Shown: piece by piece, positions 27,438 through 64,000 of the stretch
How positions within the stretch are numbered: position 1 is the stretch's first letter
How the letters are laid out: each line of letters opens with the position of its first letter
Assembly (NCBI RefSeq): GCF_008831285.2
Contig: NC_045139.1
Location: 2,364,704-2,428,703, forward strand
Length of the DNA: 64,000 nucleotides
Direction: 5' to 3'
Origin: Nymphaea colorata
Lineage: Eukaryota > Streptophyta > Magnoliopsida > Nymphaeales > Nymphaeaceae
The notes under the pieces: model-generated
What the model saw: only the letters and a program-made list of their open reading frames with translations
The model's database searches: none
What the model was told of the DNA's origin: nothing
Translations under genes and position numbers: made by a program

Positions 27438-31031
<3,594 letters not shown>

Positions 31032-34000
31032 GACAGAGAGAGAGAGAGAGAGTTGCAGAGGAAATGGAAATGGAGAGGTGGGAGATGGGGAGGTGAATAA
31101 CGGAGGTAGCAAATATAGTAGTGCTGTAGGAGTTGACCGTTGCGTGCCGCCGAAATTTTTTTCAAGTATTCAAAGAATCGAAGGTCAAAGGCTTAAGCAA
31201 TATGAACTACTGTGGCCGTTTTTCTGAAAAACTCAAAATGCAAAATTAAGGATATCTCTAACTTTTAAGCATAGTTAAAAACTTGAACAATAAAAGATAT
31301 TTGATTTATTTTATTTTAATATAAATTTTCGTTTCTCCTTTTTATTCCTTCATAAAATTTATGTTAGCATTTTCAGAATGGAGTCACTGTCCTTCATAAA
31401 ATTTATGTAAAATGAAAATAATTTATACCGGTGCATGTCCATATTATTGCGTCAATGAAGTTCTGTTCACTTTTTCTGCAAGGTTGGACTTAAAAGACAT
31501 TAAATAAATTTAAGAGTTCATTTGAAACTCCTGCAAAGTCAGCTTCTCTGAAGTAACGAACAAGAAAAATTTCGTTAACATACTTGTACTTTGCTATAAT
31601 CCAAATACAGACCTCGCAGTTCTAGTTATCTTCAATCCGGCCTTGCTTTAGCTAACAACTGCTAAAAATGAACCCACAAGCTAAATGATAACAGATACAA
31701 ATTACAATCACATACAATTTATACTTTAAGCTAAAAATTTTTCTCTTCCACTTCCGTACAATAATAATAGTTATAATCGTCATTTATTTTGTTATTGCTC
31801 ATATTCTAGGTAGAACTAAGCAGCAATGGTAGTCGTGGAACTTCATTTGGTAGTTATCAGTATCATTGAGTCCTATAATAAGAAAATCAGAAACATAATG
31901 GCCCGTGTCTAATATTATAGACAAAATGCAGTCTCTTACATGAAATTTTTCTTCATTGAATGTAATAAAATATAAATGTCAAAATACAAGTCCGTGTGTT
32001 AAGGAAAGAATGATATTTTTCGTCAGTACGCGCTCTTCAAACCTTATTTCTGCATTTCAAAGGAAATAAACGTTTTAGAGGTATAAACTAGGTTGCAAAC
32101 TCGCATACGAGTCCGCTCATATCTCTTAACTATTTTATTAAAAAAAGAAAAGTACGGTTTGTCTTATAAAATATAAAAGTTCCACTCGAGATCATTTTTT
32201 CTATTTGATGGGGAGCTATCAATGGTAGAAACGCCTCATATATTTTGACTAGGGCTGTACAATAGGGGCGAGCTCGAGCTTGAACTCTACTAGTTATAAG
32301 GTGAACTCAAGCTCAACTTACATAACCAAGTCTGAACTCGAGCTCGATTCGTGTTCCTTAATATATATTTTATACTTAAAAATTTTTATATTTTTATTTA
32401 GGCCATTTTAAGTTTTTGAAATTATAAAAATCAGTATTCGTGTTAAAAGAGCTTAATCGAGATTAATTGAGTCGAGTTCATCCAACTTGAACTCGCTTCA
32501 TTCACAAACTCAAGTTATCAGTTAAACTCGAACTTGAATCGTTTAACTTACAAGTCAAGCTCGAGTTGGTTTGACTCTCTCAACATTCTTAACTTTGACA
32601 TCTTTAATTTTACATGCATAAATTATCAAAAATGTTCTTTCGCCACTTGTAGAATTTTCAAAAAAATATTTTGGCCCTTTTGATAGTGCAATTCTTGACT
32701 GTTCAGCCTCTGCAAGTTAAAAATTCTTGCCCTGCCACCGTCTTGAGGTGAGAGGAAGAAAGGAGAGCTTTGGTTCTTTGTCCCTAGTAAACATATATTA
32801 AGTGAAAATTTGCTCCAAAAGAAATTCACCAAGCCGTAAAACACACCAAAACCCATTGTTGCTTTCTTCAATTTGAAGGTTTTAAGTTGTCTCATCTGAA
32901 GAACTGTGTGGAGACAGTCCACCACCACATGCCGCTGCATTCATGGAGTCCAGGGTGCCGTGCATCTTCTAGTATAGCCTCAGGGGCGCAGCTACATATA
33001 AGCATGTGTGGGCAGTTGCCTACACAGTCCCACACCCTTTTTCATTTATTTTTCAAATTTGTGGTCTCCAACAATTGGTTTATCTATATATTATGTCTCA
33101 CTTAATCATTTGAGCGGTGCCCCTTAATCATTTTCTTGTATCTAATTTTTTTTTTTAAGTGAATGCCCCTTCGCCAAAAATTTCTGTCTTCATTCCTAAT
33201 TATAATGGCTTTGGTTTTGTTCTTTTGCATCTTAATATTGTGATTTTGGCACTAATTGCACTCTTTGCTACGGAATGACATATAAACAGCAATGGCAAAT
33301 GCTCGTCTAAAAAAAGAGGCAACAATGGTTTGACATCAGCTAACAATTCTAAAGTATGCAATTACTCCAAACAGCCCAAGTTGCCCTAAATGCAAGATGC
33401 ATGACATGAAATTTGACGATGTATCTTGTGCACCCTAGTTTCACCGCGAGCTACATCCGGTAGCTTTTAATTGGCAAATTTCGGCTATCTTTCGTTTCTG
33501 GTTTCAGCAGAGATTACGATTTCCAATCATGACGCTACCGATCTTTCCCACCTCAACAACTCTGTAAAAGATTTGATATGAGTAGAAAAAGATTGTCCTT
33601 TACTGTTAATATGACTTTTTGTGTATTCAATTTGATCAATGAACAAAGTCTGACCCCTTTATACTTTCTACGCAGTGGGGCCAAAAGATAGACAGAATGC
33701 CAATATGAGCATTTTCCACTCGAACCAGAAAAGCGGCTTCGCCAGCAGAGAGATCTGTAAAGTAAGCAAATCCATTGTGGCCCAGCCACTTATGAATTGC
33801 TCATGCATACCAACCGCATCGGTAAAGCGGAGTTCCGTGAATGGTAGAAGAGTCCACCGTACTGTTCCAACCGCATGGTGGGAACAGAAATAAACCAGCT
33901 TGAAAATTTTTCCGATGCAATCATCTTGGAAATTTTTCAAACACAAAGTCACAAACGACTCATATACGGTTGCTTGTGTCCCTCTTGTTTAGCATTGTTG

Positions 34001-43200: not shown

Positions 43201-45578
43201 CTCCAAACCTGGAAAAACGGACAGTTCCTAATTAGAGCAAGTACTTTGGCAATCATGCAGATGAGGAGATCTAAAACGAAAAGGATTCATGTAAACCTTC
43301 TCACTCCTTCTGCAGGAACCATCAGCCATTCAGCTGTAAAAGCCAATGGATCATAAGAAATTGGTTACAAGAAGAAATATACTGCAAACCTGCGACACAC
43401 TCCACAGCCAGATATTGAGAATAGAACCAAACAAAGACAAAACCTTGGATCAAGCAATAGCAGCCTTATTATGTTACAAACCTTCCAGGTTTTCTCTTTA
43501 GCTTAATGACAATTGGCAACTGATAGCAATGGAATAACTTTCTAGGTTGGCATTTTGTTAAACTATCGTAGGTTGAACAGGCAAAAATAAACCGAAAACA
43601 TAGGTCAGACTTGCACCATCATGTAATTCGATAAACCTAAGTTGTTTAAGATGCAGGAGAAAGGATTTTGTTGAACCAACGAGTGAACAGGACCTGGACG
43701 TTGCATACAAGCGTCAAGATTTTGAGAGCAGATGCTGTTTTTCAAGGATCATTGCCAGTCTATTATTAAGTTCAATGACAATCAGTTGTCTATTGTCAGA
43801 GAAAGTGTTGATCCCATCTGAGAACGCAAGTTGTACGTTTTTCCTTTTTACGGCTCTTTGGTTGATGGAAAACGTTTTGCAGTAAACAAATTCTTGCCTA
43901 AGCAAAATTTGCATTTTAGATAAAACTTTTGCCTTTCTTAAGGAAAATTTCTTTTTACCTCAAAAAAGCAAAAATTAAATCGAAAACAAGACCTTGGCAA
44001 AAGTTTTCCCAAGCCAACTCGTATTTCTCAGTATTAAGCAAAATCAGTGGGTCCTACCATTCTTAGAACAGTTTTTTGCCTCCAGAACTTTTGCCTTCAG
44101 TCAAATTGCCCCACAACAAGCACACAGTACTTATAATCACATGAGAATCAGGATTCTGATAAGATGCAGCAGTATATAGGCGAAAACCGTGGGATAGACA
44201 TGTTTCAACTTTCCAGATGGATACAGGTTAAAAAAATTCCTACAGACTTGAGTTGGAACACCTACCAAGGTCTTCAATGTTTGGAATTGTAGCAGAAACT
44301 GCAACCATACGTACATGAGCGAGGGGGCTTGAACTCATTTTGGGGTTGCGAGCAAGCATCTTTATCCTGCTAACTATAGCTTCCAGAACTGCTCCCCGTG
44401 TATCACTTAGAAGGTGAACTTCATCAATAAGTAGAAGAGAAATATCCCCAAAGAACCCGAGTCCACCATCCCATATACGTTGCCGGGTAACAGCATCAAA
44501 TTTCTACAGCAGCCAGATTATCTTGGCTGAATTTTACAATTTAAGCCTAGAAACCACCACAAAGTGCAAGATATATAGCTTTCTAAAACATATATATGTG
44601 CAGGATAACCTATGATAGCTTCCATAAAGCAAAAAAAGAATAAACTAAAAGCAGGTGTAGCAACCTCTGGCGTGGTTAATATAATGTCAGCTTCTTGTAG
44701 ATGTCGAACATTATATGATTCATTGTCTCCTGTCAGCTCCAAGCAACTGATTCCCAGAGAACCAAATTTCTGGTTCCAATCTCGGAGCTTCTCTTGTACT
44801 AAGGCTTTAGATGGAGCTACATAGACCTGCCAAACATTTGTTGGAAATGGAACAATTCAAAACCTGTCATTAACATGAGCATGATTATTCTAGTACAATT
44901 TTTAGTCTTCATCAAATGCCTGCTCTGTAGAGCAAGAAGACCACAAAATTCAATTAAGGAAAGCTACACAAATACAGCGAGACAAACTGAGGAAGAAGCC
45001 TACGGTTTTAAAAGTTCCTTTCATTTGGTTGAATTTTCCTTCTTCTGTTAGAAACCTGGAGAGAACTCTCAAGATGCACAGCTCAAACAGTACAGTTTTA
45101 CCACTCCCAGTTGGTGCGGATATAGTAGCATTTGTATCTGAGAGATAACACAGAGGAAAACACTCACTCTGCAAAGAGTTGAAATATCTGCATATAAAAA
45201 AAGGGATGTGTTATGTTTTCACTGATGATCTATATGCAGTAAATTTTTCACCTTCCAAATTATTGAATCGGATCTACGATTAGAAACAATTCAATTGTAA
45301 GGGCCACTAGTATGAATGTTGAAAAAGCCTAAGATGTTTTATGACCACTCAAGATGCCAACACTGTTTTCATGATAAGACATTATGCTGCAGAACCTGTA
45401 TAGGTACAGAACTGCGTGCAGGTTGATGCTAATCAGACATGCCGACTAGATGAATCAACCTTGGTAAGGAAGCGAAAGGATTTGTGGAGTTGCTCTGTGA
45501 TTATTCATACCTGAAGTTAAAAGTCGGCCTGAAAGGTGGTGGTAGGTCGGAGACAGATTTCAGGCTGTATGGATCCAT
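34201..45578 (-). CDS. HFM1: HFM1/MER3-type ATP-dependent DNA helicase (meiotic crossover, ROCK-N-ROLLERS)
   Basis: A ZMM-pathway helicase that unwinds recombination intermediates and promotes interference-sensitive crossovers in meiotic nuclei. 24 exons in transcript order: 45578-45511, 45187-45004, 44826-44665, 44503-44266, 43333-43297, 43208-43162, 42513-42476, 42355-42334, 42215-42006, 41628-41478, 41366-41315, 40333-40262, 40052-40003, 39928-39811, 39734-39671, 39592-39509, 38670-38545, 38464-38268, 38194-38006, 37913-37567, 36275-36193, 36102-35898, 35014-34950, 34862-34201. Joined 3471 nt, 1156 aa, in frame throughout. Walker A APTGSGKT at 47-54, DEVH at 165-168, SATIPN motif III, GINLPA, and motif VI QMCGRAGRP about 403-411; then a winged-helix region and a Sec63-type domain ending in the LLKQLVGIGLVTAK / ADPRRIE helix-hairpin region; acidic, Ser-rich C-terminus. 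All introns are GT-AG except intron 14 (GC-AG). The gene looks intact. Confidence 0.93.
42578..42600. repeat. (GA)n microsatellite in HFM1 intron 6
   Basis: A short GA run between exons 6 and 7 of HFM1. Confidence 0.85.
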
Positions 45579-45698
45579 AACTGGACTTATTCACCGTGCA
45601 AAACAGAATGAGCTAAAATATTCCAAATGGAACCAGATTAGACAATTGCAACAGTAAAACAGAATATCCTTGTTCAATTTCACTGAGATCTTGTATTT

Positions 45699-45756
45699 GT
45701 GTGTGCGTGCGTGCGTGCGTGTGTGTGTAAGAGAGAGAGAGAGAGAGAGAGAGAAA
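45699..45756. repeat. (GT/GCGT)n and (GA)n compound microsatellite
   Basis: TGTGTGTGCGTGCGTGCGTG passes into a GA run, upstream of the HFM1 start codon. Confidence 0.85.
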
Positions 45757-46383
45757 GAAAGATTCCAGTCAAAATTTTAGGTCATGATCGTGCGTAAATA
45801 TGTACTTAACAAGTTTATGTGAGTACTTGTTGCTGGAAGTCCAAACAGATAATTCTGTGAGTACACCTGAGGACACACCTTTTACTTGCGGCAGTTCTTC
45901 AATTTTCTACATGCACCAGAGGAGACTCAGATCTGCACAAGAGTTTCCACGGAGGTAAGTTTAACACAAATTATTCACAATTTCACCAAAAAATAGGTAA
46001 AGCATATCCAGAACTAGGAAAATTCACATGGAAACAAAGTGATCGCTGCTGAAGGAGCATCACTGCATCAGGGCTCCGTCAAACGCAAGGTTAGAAAATA
46101 GACGGTTTCAAATTTATAAAGAGAATCATCAGCTACTTTTCTCTGCTGAATTCCCGGTTACTATGCTAGAACAGTAAGTTCATCCGATGAGATCGTACAA
46201 TCTGAATTCTGAAGTTCAACCTGAATCTAAGCCTCTTTCTAGGATCGAACGGCGCGCAACTTAAGCATTCTTTTCCAGAATTTGTGATCCAAATGAGGAA
46301 AAGTCCAAATTGAGTAAAAAAGATGCTTACATTTCCCAAAGCTTAGGTTTGCTGCAACAGATTCCCAGGTTGAGTAGAAAAAT

Positions 46384-46385
<2 letters not shown>

Positions 46386-46414
<29 letters not shown>
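46386..46414. repeat. (GA)n microsatellite
   Basis: A GA run between HFM1 and the NLR block. The open frame spanning it (46310-46597) is repeat-driven and was not called as a gene. Confidence 0.88.
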
Positions 46415-46416
<2 letters not shown>

Positions 46417-47557
46417 AGCCGAGAAGGAAACAGAAAATATGTGGAGGCAGCGGTTTAAACGAGGATTGGCGCGTAAAAACTTGAGCGCGAAGATTCGAAA
46501 TGGATCGGGATTTAAAACCCGACTCACTTCTTACCAGGACAAGCATGGATCTCAGAATCAGATCCAAATCTGTTACCGCTTTGGGTTTGAAGTTTGAACT
46601 CAATCAATACGACTTCACATATTAGTGTTTGATCGGATCATCTTCATTCATAACCCTTTTCGGGTCAGAAGCAAACTTATTCTATCTTGACATTTCGAGA
46701 TGACACATTCAACCATATGGGTAAGTGCATATTATTTTACTTGCAAATGAGTATGAATGGTCATTTTCAAGTACTTTAAAATCAAAATTCATTTAACAAG
46801 AGATTCTTGGGACTTGTGGAGAAGATGAGGCTCATGCGACAAGACATGTAACAAAGAGATTACATATATAAATTGTCTATATTCCAATCAGTCTATTCAG
46901 AAAGCCATTAGAAAGCTGCTTATAACAGATTTCAGTCGCCTAATGTCGTTCATCCAACTGCGGAATGACGTCGAAACGAAGGAGGAGATTGGATCTGCCC
47001 AATGCCACCAAAACAGTTCATCTTGGCCGTTCATTTTCTTCTGTGTATGGTGGTCATTAGTCATGGTAAAGGTTGTCAAAGGGTGAGAGGTTTTTTTGGA
47101 TATAATATAGACTTGAATAATAAGGGAAAAAACAGAAAAGGACGATATTTTAAAAAAAAATTAAAAATAAGAAAAATAAAATAAGTGAGAAAATAATAAC
47201 ACAATAATATTTGCAACAAATAAAAAATAAAAAAGACCGTTTGGCATTAAAAAATCAAAAAAATCAAAAAAATTCGTTGTTCATGTTTTTTTTTCAAAAA
47301 AAACTCGTTTTTTAAAGTTTTAAACAGTTCATTTTCTCATGTTATTTTTTACGTTTTTTTTTTCAAAAATAAGTAGTCTTTTGTGTGACTATGCTTCATA
47401 GCAATACATATGGTAATTAAACCAACCCCATCAAACATGCACATGTCAAGACTATGTAGCAGAGTTTGTAAAACACGGTGACTAATCTTATTTGATCGAA
47501 ATCATAGCATTGGTGTACATTATTTGGCTGGTCAACGCGTTTCTATTGCAAGTTCAA

Positions 47558-48230
47558 TCTAACGCTTTGTTTTGTTTGAATGGAGAGAAAAAAAAAAGAA
47601 AAGGGAGGGATAAAAAGAGAAGTGAATGGAAAAACAAGAGAATAAAAAAAAAAGTGATTATAAAGTTTTTTTGAATAGAAAAGTTTGTTTGGGCTATATA
47701 AAGAAAATGAAAGAATATAATTTGTAATACGTTACAATAATACCTTTAACATTAAAAAATTTATCATTTAAATAAAAAATTTATTTAATTTGATTTTCTA
47801 ATTCAATAAAAGAGTAACCACACTTACACTCACATTTCATTCTATATTAATAAATATTATAATAATTTACATCGATCATACAAAATGCCATTTTCAAGTA
47901 CATTACTTGGATGACATAAACATGGTAAAGGGCTCATTATAAAATATCATCCAAGTCTCAAGTAGTGGCCGGAAAGGAGAGAAACAGATAGGCTGGGCGC
48001 TCGTTGGGCTCTTGACCAATGGCAAGGAAGGAGAGAAAGAGTCACGCAAGTCAGTTGAAAGTGTATACACGTTTGTATTTACATTAGAGCTTCATTTCCT
48101 TTTCTTTTCTTTTCTTTTCATCCATTTGCAAGCAAACAAATTTTTTACTTTTTTTAATTAATCAACCAAACAAATAAGAATTGATTGTTTTTCCTTTTAT
48201 TTCCCTCCATTCAAATAGAGCATACATAGC
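47558..48230. mobile_element. Possible MITE with TTTGAATGGAGRGAAA ends
   Basis: TTTGAATGGAGAGAAAA near 47574 is inverted as TTTCCCTCCATTCAAA near 48200. The inside is AT-rich with purine tracts and no coding frame. The target duplication is not clear. Confidence 0.45.
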
Positions 48231-48804
48231 ATCACTAGGGACTTACTAGTAATTAAATGAAAGGAATGCGTGAGCAACATGACAAGCAAAAATTGAGAAG
48301 CAAATGTCTTCTAAAAATACTACAATGAGATTAGACGATGATCATCAGGAGACTGTGAGGAGCAAATTCTAGAAAAAGGAAAGTAGGATTCTAGCACTAC
48401 GGTTTACAAAACCACTTCTTAGTAGCCAGAGTGACTTCATCAAGACAACCAAATCTAGAACAATACCGATGGAAGGACTTGTAAATGCGACCATATGTTG
48501 GTCATGGGGTCACCCATGTTCTTATAGTCTTTCTAGTTAGCTCTCTTTGGCAGGAGAAATGACTTACTGTGCCTGATGTGGTGGGGTGCGCGGGCGGTCG
48601 AGTGCTCCTTCTCCTGGAGCATTCTTGATGGCAGACGATTAGGAAAAAGAAAGAAAAAAAAGAGAAAAAAAAAAAACTTGATAGTTTCTTTATTCAAGCG
48701 ACCCAATCTATCATCGTGCGCAGAACCGTCTAAGCTACAAATTCTTGTTTGCGATTAATACTAACAAAATCATCTATGCCTTTTGATTTGCATTCATTTG
48801 GCAG

Positions 48805-51800
48805 GCAACTGGAGAGGATTTTCGAAGTCATTGTCAAGCGGATTCTACGTGAACTACCATCACCGCTAATGCTTCCCGAGAACCTGGTTGGCCTTGCTCA
48901 CCACATGTTGGAATTGTTGACATTGAGGCTGACTATGTTCGAATTATTGGAATAGCTGGCATAGGCGGCTTGGGCAAGACTGTTAGGAACAACACAGAAT
49001 AAACTCTCCTCTCGCACTCTCAAGAGGAGGTTAGAAGCAACAAGGAAGAAGACAACGATTTACGTGGTTCGGAGCAATAATCTCCTATGTCCACGGTCGC
49101 ACAGATCTCACACACTCAAGCGGCGGCCATCCTCTAAACATAAGGATTAGGGCAAACCCGCATTGTACAAAATGACATATATGCCCTTACATAAAGACCC
49201 GCGGTATTGCAAATGAGTGTCCAGTATGGATGGCCAACAACCCTCGCGGTGGCCGTCTCCTACAACTATCATGCCTCCTCTTTCATTTCAGATGTCAGAG
49301 AATTGTCAAGAGAATACAATGGATTCATCAGACTTCAAAGGCATCTCGTCCAGGACGTCTTAAAAGATGAGAGCGCGCACATAAGTGAAGTGAATGAGGG
49401 GATCAGCATCATCAGGAGAAGAGTTCAGGGAAAGAGGGTTCTTATTGTTCTCGACGACGTTGATCGCACCGAACAACTTCAGGCACTGGCTTGTCGGCGG
49501 GAGTGGTTTACGGGAGGGAGCCGGATAATTATTACAACAAGAGATGAACGTGTTCTACGTCTCAGTGCAGTCCGAGAACATGAGATTTGCCGGCTTGGAG
49601 AATTGAATTCAAAGGATGCACTTCAACTGTTCTACTATCATGCCTTTCGGGGGAATACACGCTCCTATGCGAGCAGGTTGCGTCCAATTGTGGGGGCCTG
49701 CCTTTGGCGATCCGGGTGCTTGCGTCACTTTTCTCTGACTTGGAAAGTCTTGAAGAGTGGAAATTCATGTTGGAGAAGCTGAATGTGTCTCCAGGCAGCT
49801 CTCTTTTCGACAAATTGAAGGTAAGCTTTGATGCACTTGATATTAACGAGAAGGAGATTTTTTTGGATGTTGCGAGCTTTTTCCTTGGAAATGGCAAAGA
49901 TAATGCATGTTACATGTGGGAGGACCGCGGCCTTTTTCCATCAGCAGCAACTAGAGTCCTTGTCGATAAATCCCTCGTTCAGATCAACGATCAAAAGGAA
50001 TTTGAAATGCATCAGCTAATTCAAGGAATGGGAAAGGACATCATTCGACGAGAAAGTCCCTTGAAGCCTTGAGGACGGAGCCGGTTGTCAGATGCTGATG
50101 ACATATTGGACATCTTGCAAACCAGAAAAGTAAGTGCTAACTTTACATGCTCCTCGGATTCAAAATTTTGCTACTTGAACTTGATCTCGCTTGTATCTGC
50201 AACTCGAGTTTAGGATAATTATTAATTGATAATGGGTTTCAAGTTCCCTTTTTTTTTCGAACTTGAATCACAAACCTTATATGTTCATTTACTTGGGAAT
50301 CTTATGAGTTGGTCAGTCAAGGTTTCAAATTCATCCACTTCATTTAGGACACTGAAATGATCCAAATTTCTGATGGGTTAAAAATGGTTTCAGCTATACA
50401 TGAATGTGGAACACGAATTTCTGGAATGTATGTGACGCGTCTTCCTATTTATAGGATATGTTTTTAGAACCTGCAGATTGTTTGCAGCCTCTACAATTGA
50501 GCTCTGCTTGTTGAGGCGAATCCTGACCAGCTCACTCAAATGTGCATGACTCTGCATGCTTTCTAAGGATAAAATAGCGCTAAAATGAACTTAGGTTTTA
50601 TTATGTGATACTAAAAGGTTAATCATTGTTTTTAATTTCAGGGAACTGAAAAAGTCAAAGGTCTTTCTCTCAACATGGAAAATTTTGAAGAGGAGGAGCG
50701 GCCATGTTTGGAGGCGGAGGCTTTTGGTGACATGCCAAATCTGGAACTTCTGCGACTCAATTCTGTTGAGATCGGTGGCGATTATCGGCATTTCCCTAAA
50801 GGCCTAAGATGGTTTGAGTGGAAAGGATGCTCATTGAATTCACTTCCGGATGAACTTGATCTTCAGAACTTAGTCACCCTTGACCTATCAAACAGCATGA
50901 TCAAGGAGCTTTCGTTAAAGAAGGTAAACCATAGGAAAAACTGAGCCCTAGCTTTTATTTATTTTGAAGGAAGAAATAAAATGACATTTACGTAATGGTG
51001 GACAGGTTCACGGTCGTTTACTAGTTCTCAATCTCAGCGGCTGCAATTGTTTATCGGCGATTCCTGAGTTTTCGCATTTTCCGTGGCTGAAGAAATTGGC
51101 ACTTGATGGATGTGGAAGCTTGACCCACCTTCACGATCCTATTTGGTTCGCAAAGAATTTGATTCACTTGAGTCTGAGAGAGTGCAGCATGCTTAAGCAT
51201 CTTCACGAGAACCTTGGTGAATTGCAGTCACTTGAAACTCTTAGACTCAAAGGTTGCTCCAGAGTCCAGACTTTCCTATTTGCCAAACTCCATAGGTGAT
51301 ATTGGAACTCTAAAGGAGCTTGAACTGGATTCCACCAAGATAACAACGCTACCATCTTCCATCGGGTGCTTGGAGAACCTAAGATTGTTGTCTCTGAAAG
51401 GATGCAACTATCTCACGGCATTGCCTGATAATATTGGCAGTTTGATATCGTTGACGCAACTTGTCCTTGATTTCACCCGCTTAAGTGCGTTGCCCGACTC
51501 AATGGGGTCCTTAGCTGAACTCAGATTGTTCTCACTGGAAGGGTGCACGAATCTGGTGGCCTTGCCTGATAGTATTGGCGGTTTGATATCATTGATGGAT
51601 CTCGTCCTTGATTTCACTCTCATAAAGGAGATTCCTCACTCCGTCGCCAACCTGAAGAAACTTCAACGGGTATCTCTTATAGTGTGCTTGAAAGAACTGC
51701 ACGATTCAGTCAGGGAAATGGATTGGTTTGCATCACTGGCAGGTAAAATTTTGATCGCCGATTCCAAAACAAAGCCACCCGCTGATTCTCCAGTATCTTC

Positions 51801-51876
51801 AAGTTCGTTCTCACAGAAGCGCCGCCAAAAGAAAAGAAGAAGATTCTCTAAAAAAAGAATATCAGAACCTGAACAA
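48805..51876 (+). pseudogene. Broken NB-ARC-LRR disease-resistance gene (TIR-NLR class), 5' half of the NLR complex
   Basis: Exons recognisable as 48805-50129 (NB-ARC), 50642-50923 (first LRR exon) and 51006 onward (LRR). Motifs seen: P-loop GIGGLGKT, kinase-2 VLIVLDDVDR, RNBS-B GGSRIIITTRD, GLPL region GGLPLAIRVL, RNBS-D EIFLDVASFF, MHQ in place of MHD, then leucine-rich repeats of the LPxSIGxLxxL type. An aspartate ending kinase-2 and the RNBS-D form place it in the TNL class. Lesions: a missing base at about 48918, a 259-bp insertion in the P-loop (48981-49239), a one-base shift at the G-run 49649-49653, TGA at 50070-50072, and a 7-bp duplication at 51264-51270. No upstream TIR exon was found. 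After 51271 the LRR frame is open and continues into the next TIR domain. Confidence 0.85.
48981..49239. mobile_element. Solo-LTR/TRIM-like insertion inside the NB-ARC P-loop
   Basis: The sequence between the GKT codons and TLAVAV is foreign. It begins TGTTAGGAAC and ends GGCCAACA (TG..CA). It carries TTTACGTGGTTCGG and a TATGTCCACGG partner, words I know from plant TRIM/LTR sequences. I could not see a clean 5-bp target duplication, so boundaries may be off by a few bases. Confidence 0.6.
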
Positions 51877-52175
51877 ATGACTTCATTTTCATCATCATTG
51901 CAAGAACCACTGGAACATCCTCAAGTGAGCAAGCTAGGTGCGTCGTCATCCCATCTGCCGAAACAATTCAAGTATGACGTATACTTGAGCTTTAAACGTG
52001 AAGATGCTGGCAATGCCTTTGCAATCAATCTCTCCCGAGCCCTCGAGCAGCACGGTGTGGCTGCGTTCCTAGACAATGGGACATTAAGCAAGCAAGACAA
52101 GCACTCAGACTTGCTGGATGCAATCGCCAATTCGACTGTGGCAATTCCAATTTTAACAGATTCATATGTCAAATC

Positions 52176-52726
52176 TGAAGAAAATAGAGGCGATATCAGT
52201 AAGGAAACTCTTGATCAAGAAAGAAAGGAGGAAAACAGAGGAAGTCAGCGTTACAATGCCAAAGAGGAAAACAGAGGAGTGAATGAAGAAACTCCAGCCA
52301 GCCGTGACAATGAAAACAGTAACGGCTGTAATCACTATAATGCCAACAAGGAAACACCAGCCCATCATGACGCTGGAGACAGTAACGATTATAATCGTTA
52401 CCATGGAAAGAAGGAAACATTGTCATCTGGCCAACCGTGTGAAGAAAGAAATACAAAGACAATGGCTGGCCAGGCAGCTCTCAAACAGAGAGACACAACT
52501 CAACAAAGAAATAACGACTGTAAATCAGATACAGTTTCCTTCTGTAAAGATTGATATAGATCTTGTAATTCAGGAAATAATGATGCTTGTAATTATATTA
52601 TAAATAGAAGAAAGAACCAGGCATATCGTCACCAAGAACGATAGCTGCCCTTGTGGATGTAGGTGTGATTTTACACCGAACCACGTTATATCAGGCGTTA
52701 GTCCCTTAAATCTCTGTTTTTCTTTA
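52176..52726 (+). repeat. 5' LTR of the copia element
   Basis: Begins TGAAGAAAATAG and ends TTTTTCTTTA; bounded by AAATC on the left and the primer-binding site on the right. An ATTATATTATAAATAG stretch near 52594-52609 is a plausible TATA region for the element's own promoter. Confidence 0.95.
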
Positions 52727-52738
52727 TGGTATCAGAGC
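52727..52738 (+). other. Primer-binding site (initiator tRNA-Met type)
   Basis: TGGTATCAGAGC directly follows the 5' LTR and fits the 3' end of plant initiator methionine tRNA, the usual copia primer. Confidence 0.9.
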
Positions 52739-52749
52739 AGGACAACCCT

Positions 52750-55700
52750 ATGGCGCAGAACAATTCTTCCTCAAGCATGGCGTCAGCTCCAAGCAAATAC
52801 CCTTACCCATACAATCTGAACGTTGCCAACTTTGTGTCGATCAAGCTCAATCAAGGAAATTTTCTGCTTTGGCAAACACAGATGATGGGGCTCATCGAGA
52901 GCCAAGATATGACTGGTTTCCTAGACGGAGAATACCAGCCGCCCGCACAGTTCCTCACTGCCTCTGCTGAAAATACAGTCACAGGACTGAATCCCGACTA
53001 TCTTGCTTGGCGAAAGTCGGATCGTCTTCTTAAAGGATGGATCACTGGGACTCTTGCAGAGGAAATCCTAGGCATTATCATCGGACAACAAACTGCCATG
53101 GAGGTATGGACTACTCTAACTCAGCATTTCGCTAATAAATCTAAGGAGCGAGAAATGTTTCTTATGCAAAAACTTCAAATGCATAAGAAAGGGAACTCGT
53201 CCATTGATGAATATGTTCGCAGCTTCAAGAAAATTTCCGATGAGCTCGCTGCTATTGGAAAGCCTATTACAGACGAAACTAAAGTCTTTTGGCTCCTCAC
53301 TGGCCTCGGAAAAGATTATGAATCTTTTCGAACAACCTTATTGACAACCATGCTGAAACCACCAGCACCCTCATATCTTGAGGTAGTTGCTCTTCTTCAA
53401 AATCATGAAACTATGAGGACGTTAGAAGAAGATTCTTCTAGCACCCACGTTACTTTTTTCAGCCACCGTCAACCTAATCAAAGGTACAAGGGAAGCAAAA
53501 ATCAAACCTTCAATTCTAAAGGACGTGGGTTTGTGCAAGCTAGCCAAAGTGGTTCATGGAACTCAGCCAACAAAAACAAAGATGGCAATATGAACCGATC
53601 AGCTCCAGAAAAAGGCATAATATGCCAAATATGCAGCAAAAGAAATCACACCGCTCTCAACTGCTGGCATAGGTTCAATCAAGTGTTTCAGTCACAAAAG
53701 GCCCCACAAGCTTTAACCATCACGAAAGCATCTGAAAATCAAGATCAACAATGGTTTCCTGACACCGGTGCATCGGCTCATGTGACGTCTAACGGAGGTA
53801 TACTCAGTTCTCTATCTAAATATTATGGGACAGATAAAATTATGGTTGGAAATGGAGAAAAATTGGATATTACTCATATAGGGCAGGCTACTATAGCTAA
53901 TGGGCAACAAAAACTGGTTCTTGATAATGTTTTAGTCGTCCCCAAGATCAAGAAAAACCTTATCTCTGTCAGTCAGTTAACGTCCGATCTTCCTTATGTT
54001 TTTGAATTTTCAACTAATGAATTTGCTGTGAAGGAAAAGATGACCAACAAAGTGATAATTACGGGGAAGAGGCATGAAGATCTTTATGCGGTTGAAAATA
54101 AGAGAGAAGGCAGCGACCAGATCCATGAAGTTCATTTCTCTACAAGATTTCAAGCAGCAACTAAAGAAGTTTGGCACCAACGTCTAGGTCACATTCATCG
54201 TGAGGTAGTAAATTTTCTTGCAAATAAAAAGGCCATTCGTGTGACAGGCCATAGTTCTTTAAACAGCATATGTTCTAGTTGTCAAATGGCAAAAATGTGT
54301 CATCTTCCTTTCTTACCAGTGGATGAGCATTGTGAAAAATTTCTTGATAAAGTTCATTGTGATTTATGGGGACCAGCCCCTGTTATTTCAGTTGCTAAAT
54401 TTCGATTCTATGCTGTTTTCATTGATGAAGCCACCCGGTTCACTTGGTTCTATCCCTTGCGTTACAAATCTGAGTTATACCAAGTGTTTACGATTTTCCA
54501 TAAATATGTTGAAAATCAGTTTGATACAAAAATTAAGATATTTCAAAGTGATGAAGGAGGTGAATTCAATAGTCTCAAACTTGCAGCGTATTTACAAGAA
54601 CATGGTATACATCATCACAAAGCTTGTCCTAAAACGCCACCCCAAAATGGAATGGCAGAACGGCGTCACAGGACCATTGTCGAACTCGGTTTGGCAATGA
54701 AGTTCAATGCTAATATACCAGCTCGATATTGGGTTGAAACATTTTCCACTGCAGTTTGGCTTATTAATAGACTACCCACTCCTACATTGAAGATGAAATC
54801 TCCTTTTGAATTGGTTTTTGGAAAAAGTCCGTCTTACTCTTGCTTGCGGACATTTGGGACTAGATGTTTTCCATATCTCAGAGATTACGCTCTCAACAAA
54901 CTTGAACCAAGATCCTTACCTTGTGTATTTTTGGGTTATAGTAATACACATAAGGGATACAAGTGCTTATATCCACCTACAGGGAAAATATATATTTCCC
55001 GACATGTTGTCTTTGATGAAAGTATCTTCCCTTATAAACAGCCTGGAGCACTCTTTTCTTCTACATCAACCAGCAACAGTGGGGTGACTTACAGTGATTG
55101 GATTGCATTAGATCAATGTTCAGATGGTAACAATGATAATTCATATCAAGTGGTTGATCATCATCTCTTGCATGATGGTTCATCAGACACTGCTTTTGTC
55201 CAAGAGCCGCCTAGCAGACACGACAATGTTTCAACACAAGAGACACATGATATAGGTGCAAATGATCTACTCTCACCAAACAATGAGGCTGGAAGTCAAC
55301 CACCTACAGAACAACGGCCGTTCCAAGGAACCTCCAATATTCATTCAATGGTAACTCGGGCTAAGGTTGGTACCTTAAAACCAAACCCTAAGTATTTTTT
55401 GGCCTTAACGGTACCACTTGAACCCAAAACTGTTAAGCAGGCCTTTAAAGATCCAGGTTGGGTCGCTGCTATGAAAGAAGAGTTACGTGCCTTGGAACAA
55501 TGCCACACTTGGACGTTGGTACCTCGCCAATCAGGTATGAACGTTGTTTCAACCCGATGGGTCTTTAAAACCAAACTCAAAAGTGATGGAACGGTTGAGC
55601 GACTCAAAGCTAGACTGGTTGCGCGCGGGTTCAACCAAGTGCCTGGCATTGACTTTCTAGAAACCTTCTCTCCTGTTATAAAGCCAGCAACTATTAGAAT

Positions 55701-56904
55701 TGTGCTTACTATAGCTCTTTCTCACAACTGGGATATTCGACAAATGGATGTCAAAAATGCCTTCTTGCATGGTGATTTGGATCAAACTGTATTTATTGAA
55801 CAACCACCAGGATTTCTTGATGATCAAAAACCAAATTATGTGTGCCAGTTACACAAAGCTCTCTATGGTTTACGTCAAGCTCCAAGAGCATGGTACGATC
55901 GGTTTGGAACTTATCTTCTCTCAAAAGGTTTCTTCTCCAGCATCTCTGATTCCTCGCTATTTATCTATAAAGAAGGTCGTGGTGTCATACTTTTATTATT
56001 GTATGTCGACGATATCATATTAACTGGCAGCAACCCTATGCTACTTGAAGACTTCATTCGAGATATTAGCAAGGAGTTTTCTATGAAGGATCTTGGTTAT
56101 CTTCATCACTTTCTTGGCATAGAAGTGATCAAATTTTCTGGAGGGCTCTTCCTCAATCAAAAGCGATATGCCTATAGCCTGCTGGAAAGAGCAAATATGA
56201 CATCGTGCAAACCGGCCGTCACTCCCTTGGTTCAAAATTACAAAAATCTGGTTGATGACATACCTTTTTCCGATCCGACACTCTTTCGAAGCTTGGTGGG
56301 AGGCCTCCAATACCTCACGTTCACGCGGCCTGACATCTCCTTCGCTGTGAACTTTATCAGCCAATACATGCAATCACCCATGGTCAGTCACTTTCAACTA
56401 CTTAAAAGACTCATTCGATATGTTAGTGGTTCCATTGATATCGGATGTCATATACATTCGCAAGCGCAACTCCAACTTCATGCCTTTTCTGACTCTGACT
56501 GGGCGGGATGCCAGGCAACACGTCGCTCAACTACTGGTTTTGTTACGTTTATTGGCACTAATCCTATTTCATGGACAGCAAAGAAGCAACCTACAGTGGC
56601 CAGATCTACCACCGAGGCTGAGTACCGATCAATGGCATCTGCTGCTGCCGAATTAACCTGGATTACATATATCCTCAAAGACATCGGACTCTATCTCCCA
56701 GAACCACCGGTCCTCTACTGTGACAACATGTCTGCACTTCAAGTCTCTATCAAACCGGTTTTTCACTCTCGCATGAAGCATGTCGAATTAGATTATCATT
56801 TTCTAAGGGAAAAGGTTGCACTTGGTCTTCTTACGACTCAATTTGTTCCAACGACCCAACAGGTGGCCGACATTTTCACCAAGGCTCTCTCGAACCACTT
56901 TTGA
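52750..56904 (+). CDS. Copia gag-pol polyprotein
   Basis: 1384 aa from the ATG at 52750 (MAQNNSS). An in-frame ATG at 52726 overlaps the primer site and is unlikely to be used. Order: Gag (UBN2-type), CCHC zinc knuckle at about residues 291-304, protease DTGA at 338, GAG-pre-integrase H..CC region (WHQRLGH), integrase D538, D601 and E637 (the last two 35 residues apart), reverse transcriptase with YVDD at 1085-1088, and RNase H from about 1248 (DSDWAGC). Integrase before RT defines copia rather than gypsy. The frame has no stop or shift and all catalytic residues listed are present. TGA at 56902-56904. Confidence 0.96.
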   Translation: MAQNNSSSSMASAPSKYPYPYNLNVANFVSIKLNQGNFLLWQTQMMGLIESQDMTGFLDGEYQPPAQFLTASAENTVTGLNPDYLAWRKSDRLLKGWITGTLAEEILGIIIGQQTAMEVWTTLTQHFANKSKEREMFLMQKLQMHKKGNSSIDEYVRSFKKISDELAAIGKPITDETKVFWLLTGLGKDYESFRTTLLTTMLKPPAPSYLEVVALLQNHETMRTLEEDSSSTHVTFFSHRQPNQRYKGSKNQTFNSKGRGFVQASQSGSWNSANKNKDGNMNRSAPEKGIICQICSKRNHTALNCWHRFNQVFQSQKAPQALTITKASENQDQQWFPDTGASAHVTSNGGILSSLSKYYGTDKIMVGNGEKLDITHIGQATIANGQQKLVLDNVLVVPKIKKNLISVSQLTSDLPYVFEFSTNEFAVKEKMTNKVIITGKRHEDLYAVENKREGSDQIHEVHFSTRFQAATKEVWHQRLGHIHREVVNFLANKKAIRVTGHSSLNSICSSCQMAKMCHLPFLPVDEHCEKFLDKVHCDLWGPAPVISVAKFRFYAVFIDEATRFTWFYPLRYKSELYQVFTIFHKYVENQFDTKIKIFQSDEGGEFNSLKLAAYLQEHGIHHHKACPKTPPQNGMAERRHRTIVELGLAMKFNANIPARYWVETFSTAVWLINRLPTPTLKMKSPFELVFGKSPSYSCLRTFGTRCFPYLRDYALNKLEPRSLPCVFLGYSNTHKGYKCLYPPTGKIYISRHVVFDESIFPYKQPGALFSSTSTSNSGVTYSDWIALDQCSDGNNDNSYQVVDHHLLHDGSSDTAFVQEPPSRHDNVSTQETHDIGANDLLSPNNEAGSQPPTEQRPFQGTSNIHSMVTRAKVGTLKPNPKYFLALTVPLEPKTVKQAFKDPGWVAAMKEELRALEQCHTWTLVPRQSGMNVVSTRWVFKTKLKSDGTVERLKARLVARGFNQVPGIDFLETFSPVIKPATIRIVLTIALSHNWDIRQMDVKNAFLHGDLDQTVFIEQPPGFLDDQKPNYVCQLHKALYGLRQAPRAWYDRFGTYLLSKGFFSSISDSSLFIYKEGRGVILLLLYVDDIILTGSNPMLLEDFIRDISKEFSMKDLGYLHHFLGIEVIKFSGGLFLNQKRYAYSLLERANMTSCKPAVTPLVQNYKNLVDDIPFSDPTLFRSLVGGLQYLTFTRPDISFAVNFISQYMQSPMVSHFQLLKRLIRYVSGSIDIGCHIHSQAQLQLHAFSDSDWAGCQATRRSTTGFVTFIGTNPISWTAKKQPTVARSTTEAEYRSMASAAAELTWITYILKDIGLYLPEPPVLYCDNMSALQVSIKPVFHSRMKHVELDYHFLREKVALGLLTTQFVPTTQQVADIFTKALSNHF

Positions 56905-56948
56905 ATTTTTAAGAGGCAAACTAGCGCTTTCCATACTGCCGCCTAGCT

Positions 56949-56958
56949 TGAGGGAGGC
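56949..56958 (+). other. Polypurine tract
   Basis: TGAGGGAGGC sits immediately upstream of the 3' LTR start TGAAG, where plus-strand DNA synthesis is primed. Confidence 0.75.
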
Positions 56959-57509
56959 TGAAGAAAATAGAGGCGATATCAGTAAGGAAACTCTTGATCA
57001 AGAAAGAAAGGAGGAAAACAAAGGAAGTCAGCGTTATAATGCCAAAGAGGAAAACAGAGGAGTGAATGAAGAAACTCCAGCCAGCCGTGACAATGAAAAC
57101 AGTAACGGCTGTAATCACTATAATGCCAACAAGGAAACACCAGCCCATCATGACGCTGGAGACAGTAACGATTATAATCGTTACCATGGAAAGAAGGAAA
57201 CATTGTCATCTGGCCAACCGTGTGAAGAAAGAAATACAAAGACAATGGCTGGCCAGGCAGCTCTCAAACAGAGAGACACAACTCAACAAAGAAATAACGA
57301 CTGTAAATCAGATACAGTTTCCTTCTGTAAAGATTGATATAGATCTTGTAATTCAGGAAATAATGATGCTTGTAATTATATTATAAATAGAAGAAAGAAC
57401 CAGGCATATCGTCACCAAGAACGATAGCTGCCCTTGTGGATGTAGGTGTGATTTTACACCGAACCACGTTATATCAGGCGTTAGTCCCTTAAATCTCTGT
57501 TTTTCTTTA
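56959..57509 (+). repeat. 3' LTR of the copia element
   Basis: Same 551 bp as the 5' LTR except CAGAGG to CAAAGG and TTACAAT to TTATAAT near its start. Followed directly by the second AAATC and by the rest of the TIR exon. Confidence 0.95.
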
Positions 57510-57742
57510 AAATCAAGATGGTGCCTTCTAGAGGTCGCCAATGCCGTAGAATGCTGCAGGATAGTCCTTCCTGTGTTCATCTATCATGACCCGATACATG
57601 TAAAGGAGCAGAGCGGACCTCTAGCGCTTGTCTTCCAATATCATAAGGAGAACGCCCCGCCGGAAGAACTTGATCACTGGAGAGAAGCACTGTCGGAAGT
57701 GGGAAATGCTTCAGGATACCATCTTCATCATGACGCAGATGG

Positions 57743-57762
57743 GTAAGGCCATTGCCTGTCTC

Positions 57763-57811
<49 letters not shown>

Positions 57812-59076
57812 CTCCTCCTCCTCCAGGTAGGTTTATTTTCTTGAATTTTTTATTTAATAACATAATGAATTAATAAGTGAATGCTAAATATTTTCCGATA
57901 ATCTTACAATTTAGAAGTGAAGACAACTTCGCAGAAGAGTTCTCCACTTTTGTCAATCAGAGTTCTACTGACAGTTTGTAGACGGACTCCTTTGTTTGTC
58001 CCAGTTTCCCTTCATTTATTTTTCTGAAGCTAAAAAAAGAAAATATGTCTTACATTATGTGAATAACATTGGGCGCGTGGGGGGAGGTTGGAACGAGGTT
58101 TTGCCTTGTAATCACTGGCTGTAAGAACAAAGAGACACTTAAAAGCAAAAATTGATTCGTTAACTTGACAAACAGGAACAGGGCACGCCATCCTCACTTC
58201 ACAAATCAGTTTTGTAACTGAACCGGTGTAAGTATAACCACACTTCTAACAACTTGTAATCAAAATTTTGTCTGCTAGACTATTTTCTTTATCGTGCGCT
58301 TCTTGCAAAAGTCACCATTACTTTTCACATGTCCTGCGGGGCACATCTTTCATTGGAAAAACTCTAGCACCGCATAGACCTCTATGCTTTCAATGGTTTG
58401 AGTTATTGGCAGTCTGACGAAGTGCATAAACCAAGCTATATTTGCTCCCATCCTCTTTTGCATTTTTCTTATGAGAAAAAAGTAGTGGCAAAATTTTTCT
58501 CAACTTTGTTTAATGATGTGGTGCACATCTTATCCTGATGAAGAATATCAATGTCATAGATACACAGATGTTTTCTGAACCAACGCATTTATGAAACAAT
58601 TTCAGCACGTATTTAGAGCTCTGAAACAGACCTTGACTCTGTGCACATTGCAGCACAGCAGTATTAGCTTGTTGTTTAGTTGATCCTTCAATAACCATGA
58701 TTTACCTGCTATTGAATTTTCCATTTTCTAACAGTTTCTCCTGAATTCCATTTCACTGCTCTCCATTTGCAACTTCAGCTAACGGCAATTTGGTAGTTCC
58801 AAAACTAGCTTGTCAAACGAAGTACTTCATTCTGTCTGCTTAAACTGCTTTTAATGACAAATTTCTATCAGTGGGTGTCTGAAGGATCCCATGCCCTTAG
58901 ATCAAACAGGATCATCCGTTTATTGACTGACACAAGCTCGACTAGTCTCTTGCTCCATCACACTGCTCATAGTTTCCTTGAGCTGAAAATTATCATTCTA
59001 TTGCACCTACATCGATAATCAGTACCACACATTATGGGAATTTTCTGTTCATGGTTTATGTGGTTTTTTTTGGCAG
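57743..59076 (+). other. Intron between TIR and NB-ARC exons
   Basis: A 1334-nt GT-AG intron (GTAAGG donor, TTTTTTGGCAG acceptor). Joining GG at the end of the TIR exon to A at 59077 keeps frame. Nothing else coding is visible inside it. Confidence 0.6.
57764..57809. repeat. (CT)n microsatellite in the NLR intron
   Basis: A CT run starts 21 nt after the GTAAGG donor that ends the TIR exon (donor at 57743), then CCTCCTCCTCCTCC. Confidence 0.9.
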
Positions 59077-60504
59077 AGATGAGGTCCGGCTGGTTCAACT
59101 AGTCGTCAAAAGGGTCTTAAGTTTACTAAATCGGACTCAATGCCATCCTTTTCCATACACCATCGGGATGAAAGCACGGATAGATGATTGCATGAAGCTG
59201 TTGAACATTGAGTCAGGCGATGTTCGCAGGGTTGGAATTGTTGGTGTTGGTGGAATTGGTAAGACTACCCTTGCAAAGGCTCTTTTCAGTAGAATATCCA
59301 ACTGCTACGAACTACGAAGCCAGCTGCTTCATTTCCAACTGGAGGACAAAGGCGATGGAACAACCCAATGCACTTGTCTTTCTGCAAAATGAACTGATTC
59401 GTGGCATATTCAAGGACAAAGTTAAACCAGTGAACGATGTGGATGAAGGGATGGATGTGATCAGGAGCAAAATCCAAAGCAAAAGACTTCTTCTTATTCT
59501 GGATGATGCTGATCAAACAAATCTTATAAGTGCATGGGCTGGAGAACGGTATTCCTTTCATCCCGGTAGCAGAATTATCATTGTGTCCAAAGATGTTGAA
59601 GTACTTGGGAAGAACAAGGTCTATGAGCGGGAGATCTGCCAGTTACAGAAGCTAAGTGAGGACGAATTTGTGGAGCTCTTCAACTTTTATGCCTTCGGGA
59701 GAGATCAACCCCATAAGCAATACCAAGAGATGTCAAAGAGAATTGCATCGTCTGTGGGTGGTCTGCCCTTAAATCTTAAAGTGTTTGGGTCATTCTTCTC
59801 AGATTGCAGGAATATAAGCAGATGGGAAGAGGTGCTAGAAAAGTTGACCTTCCATGGTAACGCACAGGAGGACTCAATTCAGAGCACCAATTTGGGCCAG
59901 AATGTAGGACCAATTGCTGAACAAGCCTTCGGCTCTACCTCTTCTCCAAGCAGAGACGGAGAGTCAAGGCAAAATTTGGAGACACCCATGCGACCATCCA
60001 TGGCTCCTGACTCTTCTTCAAACAGGGATGCAAACACAGGCAGGACATTGGACCCAACTGGAGGCCCGACCTCCGATGGAGATTATGACTCGGATCGAAA
60101 TCCAGATGATCCAGATCGGCTTGAAAAAATTATTGACAAACTGGATGCAACTGCTAGGGAGATATTTCTTGATATAGCATGTTTCTTTATTGGAATGAAT
60201 AGAGAAAACGCAATGCATATCTGGAGAGGTTGTGAATTTTCAGGAGGTACAAACCCTGACAAGGCAATTCAAGAGCTGCTAAGAGTGCAGCTTGTGAGTA
60301 TAAATATAAAAGATGATACATTTTATATGGACGAAAAGACAAAAGAGATGGGAAGGAAAATGGTCGAAAGGGAGGATGAGGAGCTTGGAAGACGTAGCAG
60401 ATTGTGGGAGCATGAGAAGAGCTTGCATGTACTCAACAATAAGAAAAGTAAGGCCCAAATTATAGTGCATCTTTCCAATTTAAATTGTTTGCGTAGATTG
60501 TATT

Positions 60505-60610
60505 AAGCCTGGTCATCGGGCCCGAGTGCCGGAGCCTGATTTGTCTTTATTTATTTTTTTATATTATTTTTATTTAATACTAATATATATTATTATTAAA
60601 AATATTTTTT
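60505..60610. mobile_element. Short GC-arm/AT-core repeat fragment in the NLR
   Basis: TCATCGGGCCCGAGTGCCGGAGCCTG followed by an AT-rich tract recalls the arms and core of the elements at 357-660 and 1700-2130. It lies where the first LRR exon of the NLR should be, and may have helped to remove it. Confidence 0.35.
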
Positions 60611-62228
60611 ACTTTTCTAGAGAAAACTTCAAGCTTGCACCACAATGCACAATTATCCTCAAGTTTAGATAAAATTACATATATTTTAGGCTTTACAGTT
60701 ATTATGCGAGATGGATCATCGATAGTTTTTTGGTAACAAATATCATTATTTTCTGCTCACATAAATCTATTTCATGATCAATAGGCTATGCAGTGGATGA
60801 AATCCCTTACTTGTTCTTCTTCTGCAAAAGAGGTGAGATGTGCTTCTAACTGCGTCACTGTGAGATCATATACACGTGACCGCTTTCTAATGTGGAACTT
60901 ATATTTCAACGAGCAGGATTTTGAGAACTTGAAAGTTCTTGAGCTAAAGAGCAGCGAGAACCAAACTGCATTTCCTGATTTGTCTAGCTTCCCATGCCTA
61001 GTGAAATTGACACTTGATGACTGCTGTCGCTTGGCCGAAGTTCGCACATCTATTGAGCGTCAGCGGGAGTTGACTTACTTGAAAATTAGGAACTGTTCCA
61101 TCTTACAGAGTTTGCCTGCCAATTTTTCATCTTTGCTTTCTTTTAAGATTCTTGACCTTTCTGGGTGCTCCAGCCTTTCAGATTTGCCGGGTGAAGTTGG
61201 AAACTTACAGTCACTGATGGAGCTTCTACTTTCTGGAACTTCTGTAAAAGTTATACCTGATTCCATAAATCAGCTAAGGAAACTGGAGCGACTGTTGTTG
61301 GATAATTGCAAGGCACTTACTAAATTGCCTGGGTCCCTGGAAGGATTGAAGTCCCTGCAAGAACTAAATGCCAAGAAGTGCACATTACTGGCTACACTGC
61401 CGACTTCAATTGTTAATGTTTCAAATTTAACCCATCTGCTTCTAGATGGCACAAAGATCGAAGAGCTTCCGTCTTCGTTGACCAAGCTTCTTTGTTACGA
61501 TTGCACTGCTTTAGAGAGATTAGAAGACGTTTCGAACTTGGAGAATTTAATCGAGCTCAATCTCACTGGCTGCACAAGACTTGTTGAGATCAATGGCATA
61601 GACAGTTTGGCAGCCCTGAGACGCTTTCACATGAGCGGATGCAGGAGGCTTAGTAATGCTTCCAGAAACCAACTTGTCCAGGTTTGTGATTTTTCTCTCT
61701 CATATGACATTGTTCTGCAGTTCACCTGGGTATTTACTCATGACCAACGATTTGTCACAGAAAATTTTTGAACACCTTGAAAGTTTCTCCATCCTGGGAG
61801 GCGAGATTCCCAACGCGTTCACCAATCGACAGCTATCCTATGAAGTGCCAGTCTCGCTTGACGTCCGGGAGGGAATGGAATTGCTTCTATGCCTGGTGGT
61901 TGCCGTCGAAGAGCAAGCAGGATGCTGGGAACCAAACATTAAAGTCGAAACAGAGGCAGAAGGGGAGAAGATTGTGAAGTTGCCGGGAGTTGCGTTATCC
62001 AGCAAAGACGACAACCTTTGCTTGTGGCATTACAAGGAGGCTGACCGGGTGTTCCCTCGTGGAAACGTGAAGATCACACTAGTGCACCATGAGTGGATAA
62101 AAGACGAGGTGAGGAATGGTGGCCTTTGTGAGCCCGAAAGGGAAGTAGAAGCAGCAAACCAGGATGGGCAACAAGCTTCTGTCTTTGAATGCATCGCACG
62201 CTGTTGCAGGACAAGCAATACAGCTTGA

Positions 62229-64000
62229 TGGAATTCAATCTATTGGCACAAAGGTGCAGGATTGTGCCTGACCCCAAATTGGCGATCAAAGGGGAAGGAA
62301 AAGGGCAGAAGTGGAACTAGCACTAGATTGCGTTGGAACTGCACGGTGAAGGTCGCGAAATACTAAACTTGTAGATACTATTCATGTAGCGCTAGAGAAT
62401 ACTTAGCGTTTGCAGTAAAATGATTGCAAATGCATAATCACATTTTCTCTGTGTTCTTAGCGTCCATATTCTTTTTCTTTCTTTAGGCAGCATTTCACTG
62501 TTTTTCCTGATTTGGATGGGAAATTTCACTAGGAGAAAGTTCAGTTGATAAAAGAACGAAAGAGGGGGAACTTCACCTCATACTAAAATGAGGTGTGTTT
62601 GATCAACTAGAAAAAGTTAAATTGGAGAAATTTATTGAGGTTTGATGGCTAGGTGTGGAGAGGAAAAAAAACAGTTATAACCACCAATTACAAATTTTAT
62701 CATTTTTAATTTGTATTTCAATAAGCCACATGATTTAGGGACCTAGCAATTTCTCAGCAGAAAATAGATTCAGGAACTTACCATTGAAACAAGAATATTG
62801 AACTGAAGATCAAATGGAAAATAGAAGGATAGATAACCTTTTAAAACATAAAAAAAAAAACTAGATAGATTAGGGAAGAAGCAGTAAAAAAAACAATATA
62901 TAGAACAGATTCCCACGATGAATGCACGTACTGCAGGTTATGTTTCGGGCCAGTTTGAGAATATACTCAAAGATGGTACATGCACCAAATTTATGCTACT
63001 GCATTTTGGAAATCGATGTTTTAGTTGTTGGACCTCCTCATAATCATTTTAACAAACATTTAATCCACAATCTGCACGTGAACTTGTAACATGTAAAACT
63101 AGGAAAAATGAAATAGGGGGAAAGCAGGCGCACAGACAACCGCACGTCCTTCGGCTTTGGGAGGGAGAGAGAGAGAGAGAGAGCAAATCTAATACTGAAT
63201 GGGCAAGAGAGGATCATATCTTACACAGAGCTACTTACCAATTTAGAGAGAGAGAGCAAATCTAATACTGAAGGAGCAAGAGAGAATCATATCTTACACA
63301 GAGCTATTCAACAATTTATATAGAGAGAGAGCAAATCTAATACTGAAGGAGCAAGAGAATCATATCTTACACAGAGATATTTACCAATTTATAGAGGGAG
63401 AGAGAGCAAATCTACATGTGCAACAGTGCAAGCATCTCATGCGGATGAGGCTTTAGTACTTTGCGTTGCTGTTGACATCTGCTATCTTAATTGACATGGC
63501 ATATGCTAAATGCAGTTATTTTCCCTTCAAAACTTTGGCCAAATAAGATGTAATGTCCTTCTACAGTTATTTGTGGTACTGATCACAATAGTTTTTGTCA
63601 CAGAATGCTATTCTCAACAAGATTTTGCCACAACCTGAGCGTCTTCTATGCCCGCAACTAAATGCTATGTGTCGTTCATTGTGCACAACCATTCCATATC
63701 CTTCATATTCTCCCATGCATCTGAAGTTTTTTTTATCTTCACTCGTGATTGGAACAGCCAACGTCAGTTACACTGTCAGTGGAAATTGAATTTCTATTCT
63801 CCTAAAGAATTTCACATGTTTGCAGCATTTTCGTTTTTTCTACTTTCACATATTATTTCATTTCCACAGCAAGCAGAAAGTCATGATCCCGTTCATTGTC
63901 CATAGCTCCCCTATGTTGTGAGCTACCTACAGTTGCATTTTCTTTAAAAATATTTGGTCTGCAGAATCGAGCTATCTGGTTAGGCTTTGCACGTTCAAGA
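62229..64000. other. Intergenic region downstream of the NLR complex
   Basis: NLR 3' flank, then AT-rich DNA with a GA run (about 63164-63183) and the minisatellite at 63181-63410. The open frames at 63567-63905 on both strands are short and unrecognised. Confidence 0.6.
63181..63410. repeat. 73-75-bp minisatellite, three full units plus a partial
   Basis: Units starting GAGCAAATCTA begin at 63181, 63254, 63329 and 63404 (partial). Each carries CATATCTTACACAGAG and a GA-rich end, with small indels between units. Confidence 0.9.

Follow-up and report, generated by a model that had tools for sequence, protein, structure and literature searches.

The window analysed here is a stretch of 64,000 nucleotides of Nymphaea colorata DNA, and our verdict on it was based on the window sequence, profile libraries, PDB sequences and published papers. 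Pieces of two TNL-type genes lie in tandem on its + strand, and are called here A for the upstream one and B for the downstream one. Half A survives as a remnant. Exon 2 of A (48805..50129, +) was delimited by Pfam, three-frame translation and splice-like borders and retains NB-ARC (9.2e-12) and WHD_ROQ1 (7.3e-18) matches, but is damaged by apparent frameshifts at about 48915-48945 and 49655-49690 and by a stop codon at 50070-50072. In addition, reading of the sequence revealed an insertion of approximately 250 bp (48982..49236, borders approximate, no strand assigned) that splits the P-loop directly after GGLGKT; it is TE-like in appearance. Exon 3 of A (50642..50923, +; GTEKVKGLSL...), in which the LRR region starts, was placed by splice-like borders and translation, its LRR matches lying below the Pfam cut-offs. 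The LRR exon (51006..51720, +), identified from ORFs, Pfam and translation, contains a further frameshift at about 51262-51274. No TIR domain for A was matched up to an E value of 1 in the three + strand frames of 45200-48903. Helicase-like pieces of the DEAD/DEAH-box type adjoin the TNL remnants at 44240-45210 on the - strand, with a PF00270 match (3e-7) for 44240-44503. Elsewhere in the window, pieces of cysteine-rich receptor-like proteins with Pfam matches to the Stress-antifung domain occur at 7705-8499 (+) and 18587-19165 (-), another such piece, judged by sequence appearance only, lies at 30093-31169 (-), and 63172-63414 holds a block of tandem-like repeats whose units, about 73 bp long, are 88-90% identical.

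Half B follows the usual TNL order of TIR, NB-ARC/WHD, LRR and a presumed post-LRR exon. The 5' part of its TIR exon (51877..52175, +) begins at a candidate start methionine, Met 51877, from which a serine-rich leader of 32 residues precedes the sequence YDVYLSF; leaders of such a kind are usual at the start of a TNL. The TIR assignment is based on a Pfam match of 2.8e-9, obtained for the whole ORF, and on PDB matches to four distinct sequences, the best being Roq1 (4.2e-5). These matches begin at chain position 4 in Roq1, position 2 in ADR2 and position 31 in L6, and since these positions differ, known TNL leaders vary in length. Judged from the sequence, Met 51877 would give an ordinary TNL amino terminus and is a plausible native start. 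The 3' part of the TIR exon (57513..57742, +), which carries the WCLxE motif and ends at a GTAAGG donor, falls within an ORF at 57387-57746 that resumes the TIR model PF01582 at positions 68-143 (6.5e-12); its PDB matches comprised 14 distinct sequences, with RPV1 as the best (6.4e-12). After an intron at about 57743-59076, the NB-ARC/WHD exon (59077..60447, +) gave NB-ARC (4.2e-16) and WHD_ROQ1 (1.3e-6) matches and is frameshifted at about 59300-59320. At about 59870-60135 this exon also includes a stop-free, low-complexity stretch of approximately 85 residues, rich in Ser, Pro and Asp, between ARC and WHD. The LRR exon (60870..61681, +, start approximate) matched LRR_14 at 2e-22. When exon 3 of A was compared with 57001-63500 by tblastn, no counterpart was matched in 60448-60870. 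The last segment (61761..62228, +), delimited by an ORF and a splice-like acceptor, ends in a stop codon. Since the only Pfam match of the 197-residue ORF at 61635-62228 was to an unrelated family and below the cut-off (0.026), its description as a post-LRR exon is based on position and splice-like borders. Thus, of the earlier note's statement that the TIR is followed by its own NB-ARC, LRR and post-LRR exons, the first two are borne out by profile matches and the third is a positional label. With a retrotransposon in the TIR exon, a frameshift near 59310 and exon 3 not found in 60448-60870, B has no intact reading frame.

The element that interrupts the TIR exon is a copia LTR retrotransposon (52176..57509, +), recognised from its ORFs, comparison of its LTRs, its target site duplication and Pfam. 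The two LTRs (52176-52726 and 56959-57509) are each 551 nt long and differ at two positions, an identical 5-bp target duplication flanks the element (52171-52175 and 57510-57514), and gag-pol is a single ORF of 1400 residues (52702-56904) with an RVT_2 match of 9.7e-74 along with integrase and gag matches, so that the LTR pair, target duplication and RVT_2-bearing gag-pol expected of a copia element are all present. The LTRs start with TG and end with TA, the usual ends being TG...CA, and TGGTATCAGAGC, which we presume to resemble a primer site, directly follows the LTR. The insertion site lies inside the TIR, just ahead of the WCLxE motif. When the element was removed in silico the frame of the empty site met no stop codon in the remainder of the TIR exon, and the exon was therefore probably open when copia landed. 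With only two differences in 551 positions (0.36%) the insertion is recent; a plant substitution rate of about 1.3e-8 per site per year would put its age at roughly 0.1-0.2 million years.

The central observation at this locus concerns the boundary between the two halves. The earlier note had claimed that the LRR frame enters the TIR domain without a stop, and this was confirmed. A stop-free + strand frame spans 51178-52554 and contains, by ORF listing and Pfam, LRRs (LRR_14 1.2e-18, LRR_8 5.1e-8), then a 52-codon linker and finally the 5' portion of a TIR domain, matched at positions 1-73 of the 179 in PF01582. Three-frame translation likewise showed 51274-52175 to be open with the LRR joined in frame to the TIR, and no stop occurs in the last 149 LRR codons or, without the copia insertion, in the TIR exon. 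In a PDB sequence search with 51178-52551, the top stretch was always the LRR part among the best 60 of 116 distinct sequences, which makes this search uninformative about the junction. A scan of viral contigs with the LRR-linker-TIR piece 51577-52173 returned 12 pattern matches and no confirmed relatives, as expected for a plant gene. The observation is real but narrow, and the proposal made for it is only partly confirmed. The LRRs at 50985-51299 are read in a different frame from the TIR, the shift occurring at about 51255-51275, and it is because of this frameshift that the open frame described earlier begins only at about 51271. That a single frame connects the NB-LRR part of A with the TIR was consequently not confirmed: together with the other apparent frameshifts near 48930, 49670 and 59310 and the stop at 50070, the lesion near 51265 leaves no continuous frame from the first NB-ARC to the second LRR. 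The frameshifts at 51255-51275 and 59300-59320 both coincide with short duplication-like repeats of similar length, which may have been left behind by excised elements or by repair.

A second claim, that the boundary leaves no room for a normal 3' end and promoter, agrees with the little space observed. The last recognisable LRR ends at about 51720, the linker (51721..51876, +) then runs open for 156 nt up to Met 51877, and neither TATAWA nor AATAAA occurs on the + strand of 51001-51880; a donor-like site, CAG|GTAAAA, lies within the linker at 51742/51743. The order NB-LRR-TIR-NB-LRR on one strand, which had led to the description of a TIR in the middle of a protein, was likewise found, although the TIR is most simply the leading domain of a second TNL. 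One way to account for this arrangement is that B remained an independent gene until copia and other lesions struck it, transcription starting inside A's LRR and the open linker frame being only B's 5' leader. Met 51877 and the ordinary border between exon 1 and intron 1 agree with such a gene; however, copia splits exon 1 and the NB-ARC is frameshifted, so that no full TNL is possible now, and the missing TATAWA also counts against it. We regard this account as very unlikely.

For a stretch as long as the linker (156 nt), the probability of containing no stop in a given frame was 0.157 under a model of the linker's own composition and 0.038 under a noncoding model, and 4.9% of 3716 noncoding windows in the region, which overlap one another, were open. 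Being in the same frame as the TIR would, by reasoning, lower this probability about threefold again. With a single case observed, the likelihood of chance opening is modest, yet it should not be neglected. The few per cent that chance provides for a linker that is open and in phase with both LRR and TIR count against a collapse of two separate genes, as does the lack of stops in the last 149 LRR codons and in the TIR exon without its insertion. The GC3 of the linker (0.31) lies below that of all 11 coding segments tested (0.42-0.55), which leans against its being coding sequence. Codon scores were calculated in two runs with slightly different training segments and with overlapping windows that are not independent. 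The codon score of the linker was reached or exceeded in 55.2% of the 181 noncoding windows that are open, and 37.2% of 215 coding windows lay at or below it, so that coding is not rejected. The forward-frame gap was no larger than the linker's in 17.2% of the coding windows (n = 215) and reached the linker's value in 58.0% of the 181 open noncoding ones, so that at this length codon scores fail to separate coding from open noncoding windows. In one run a reverse-strand frame outscored the linker's own frame. The six-frame gap was as low as the linker's in 4.2% of coding windows, while all 181 open noncoding windows were at least as high; it fits neither class and was given little weight. Because of the low GC3 and these codon-score results, we tentatively regard the linker as a former 5' leader.

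The same measurements bear on whether A and B were once a single (TIR-)NB-LRR-TIR-NB-LRR gene, its halves connected by a basic, serine-rich linker so as to act as a fused pair, before frameshifts and copia disrupted it. The in-phase linker without a stop, the little space for a 3' end and promoter, and published TNLTNL, NLTNL and LTNL arrangements from grape, Brassica/Arabidopsis and sunflower are in keeping with this ancestral fusion. Against it, A's frame shifts before the junction, the GC3 of the linker is unlike that of the coding segments, B possesses a native-type start methionine, and no TIR was found for A in the frames searched. Taken together, these points make an ancestral fusion rather unlikely. 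A more specific form, in which the locus would be what is left of a formerly functional receptor pair, fused covalently through this linker from two divergent old TNL lineages, with intact alleles persisting in the population, we consider quite improbable.

A and B share only 38.7% identity over 137 NB-ARC residues, which identifies them as old paralogues rather than the product of a fresh duplication slip. This divergence also bears on the assembly. Arrays of tandem NLRs pose difficulties for assembly, and the junction or the small frameshifts might in principle come from a mis-assembled array. However, such strongly different halves make an assembler collapse at the junction unlikely, and the copia element has a clean target site duplication and an in-frame empty site; we give an artefact of this kind hardly any credence.

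The best-fitting of the two readings offered by the earlier note is therefore the collapsed tandem array, to which we assign a probability of about 0.78. According to this reading, a deletion running from A's LRR exon to B's leader would have joined two tandem TNL-type genes, with the loss of A's 3' end and of B's promoter side, so that A's LRR coding sequence now abuts what would be the 5' leader of B, followed by the start codon of its TIR exon. The junction, its open frame, the lesions of A and B and the copia insertion with its target duplication are directly visible, and from them we infer the deletion as cause, its direction and its timing; decay would have proceeded both before and after the collapse, and copia would have arrived recently. 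The locus would then be the pseudogenised, decayed remnant of a gene cluster that yields no double receptor from the present copy. Broken resistance-gene remnants are ordinary in resistance-gene clusters. The alternative put forward originally, a single fused polypeptide, was not upheld for the present copy: both halves are broken, A's NB-ARC and earlier LRRs are out of the TIR frame, and no fused TNL-TNL protein can be produced from it.

Compared with TNL genes of the RPV1, L6, RPP1 and Roq1 type, the window has TIR, NB-ARC, WHD_ROQ1 and LRR in the usual order, but both copies are broken, A having no TIR that was found and B containing copia and lacking a detected exon 3. Tandem NLRs are also on record. 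A review lists TNLTNL in grape and both TNLT and TNLTN in grape and poplar (PMC3782705), a Brassica/Arabidopsis survey gives NLTNL, TNLTNL and LTNL (PMC4008172), and a sunflower survey counts one TNLTNL (PMC6115920). TNLTNL, NLTNL, LTNL and TNLT share with the window the NB-LRR-TIR-NB-LRR order, one strand and an open LRR-TIR junction, whereas the window contains no single intact frame and the published cases, as far as these sources describe them, are listed as gene models. RPP2a (TNTNL) likewise has a TIR-NB unit after another NB but, going by its letters, no LRR between the halves, unlike the window; according to the review, the functional analysis of RPP2a suggests that proteins of this type can function in resistance (PMC3782705). 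The term "TNL-TNL" in PMC8784597 refers to duplication pairs and not to fusion. Integrated domains are reported in Melaleuca NLRs (PMC10720953) and, as context only, a recent expansion of the TNL class, chiefly through tandem duplication, is described for Eucalyptus grandis (PMC4709456). Since TNLTNL-type arrangements are already in print, even a true fusion here would only add a member to a kind already known. An intact fused allele, if there is one, would allow covalently linked receptor pairs to be tested in a natural setting. If the locus is only a collapsed array, it provides a clear example of the decay of an NLR cluster and shows how automatic annotation could produce a false TNLTNL model.
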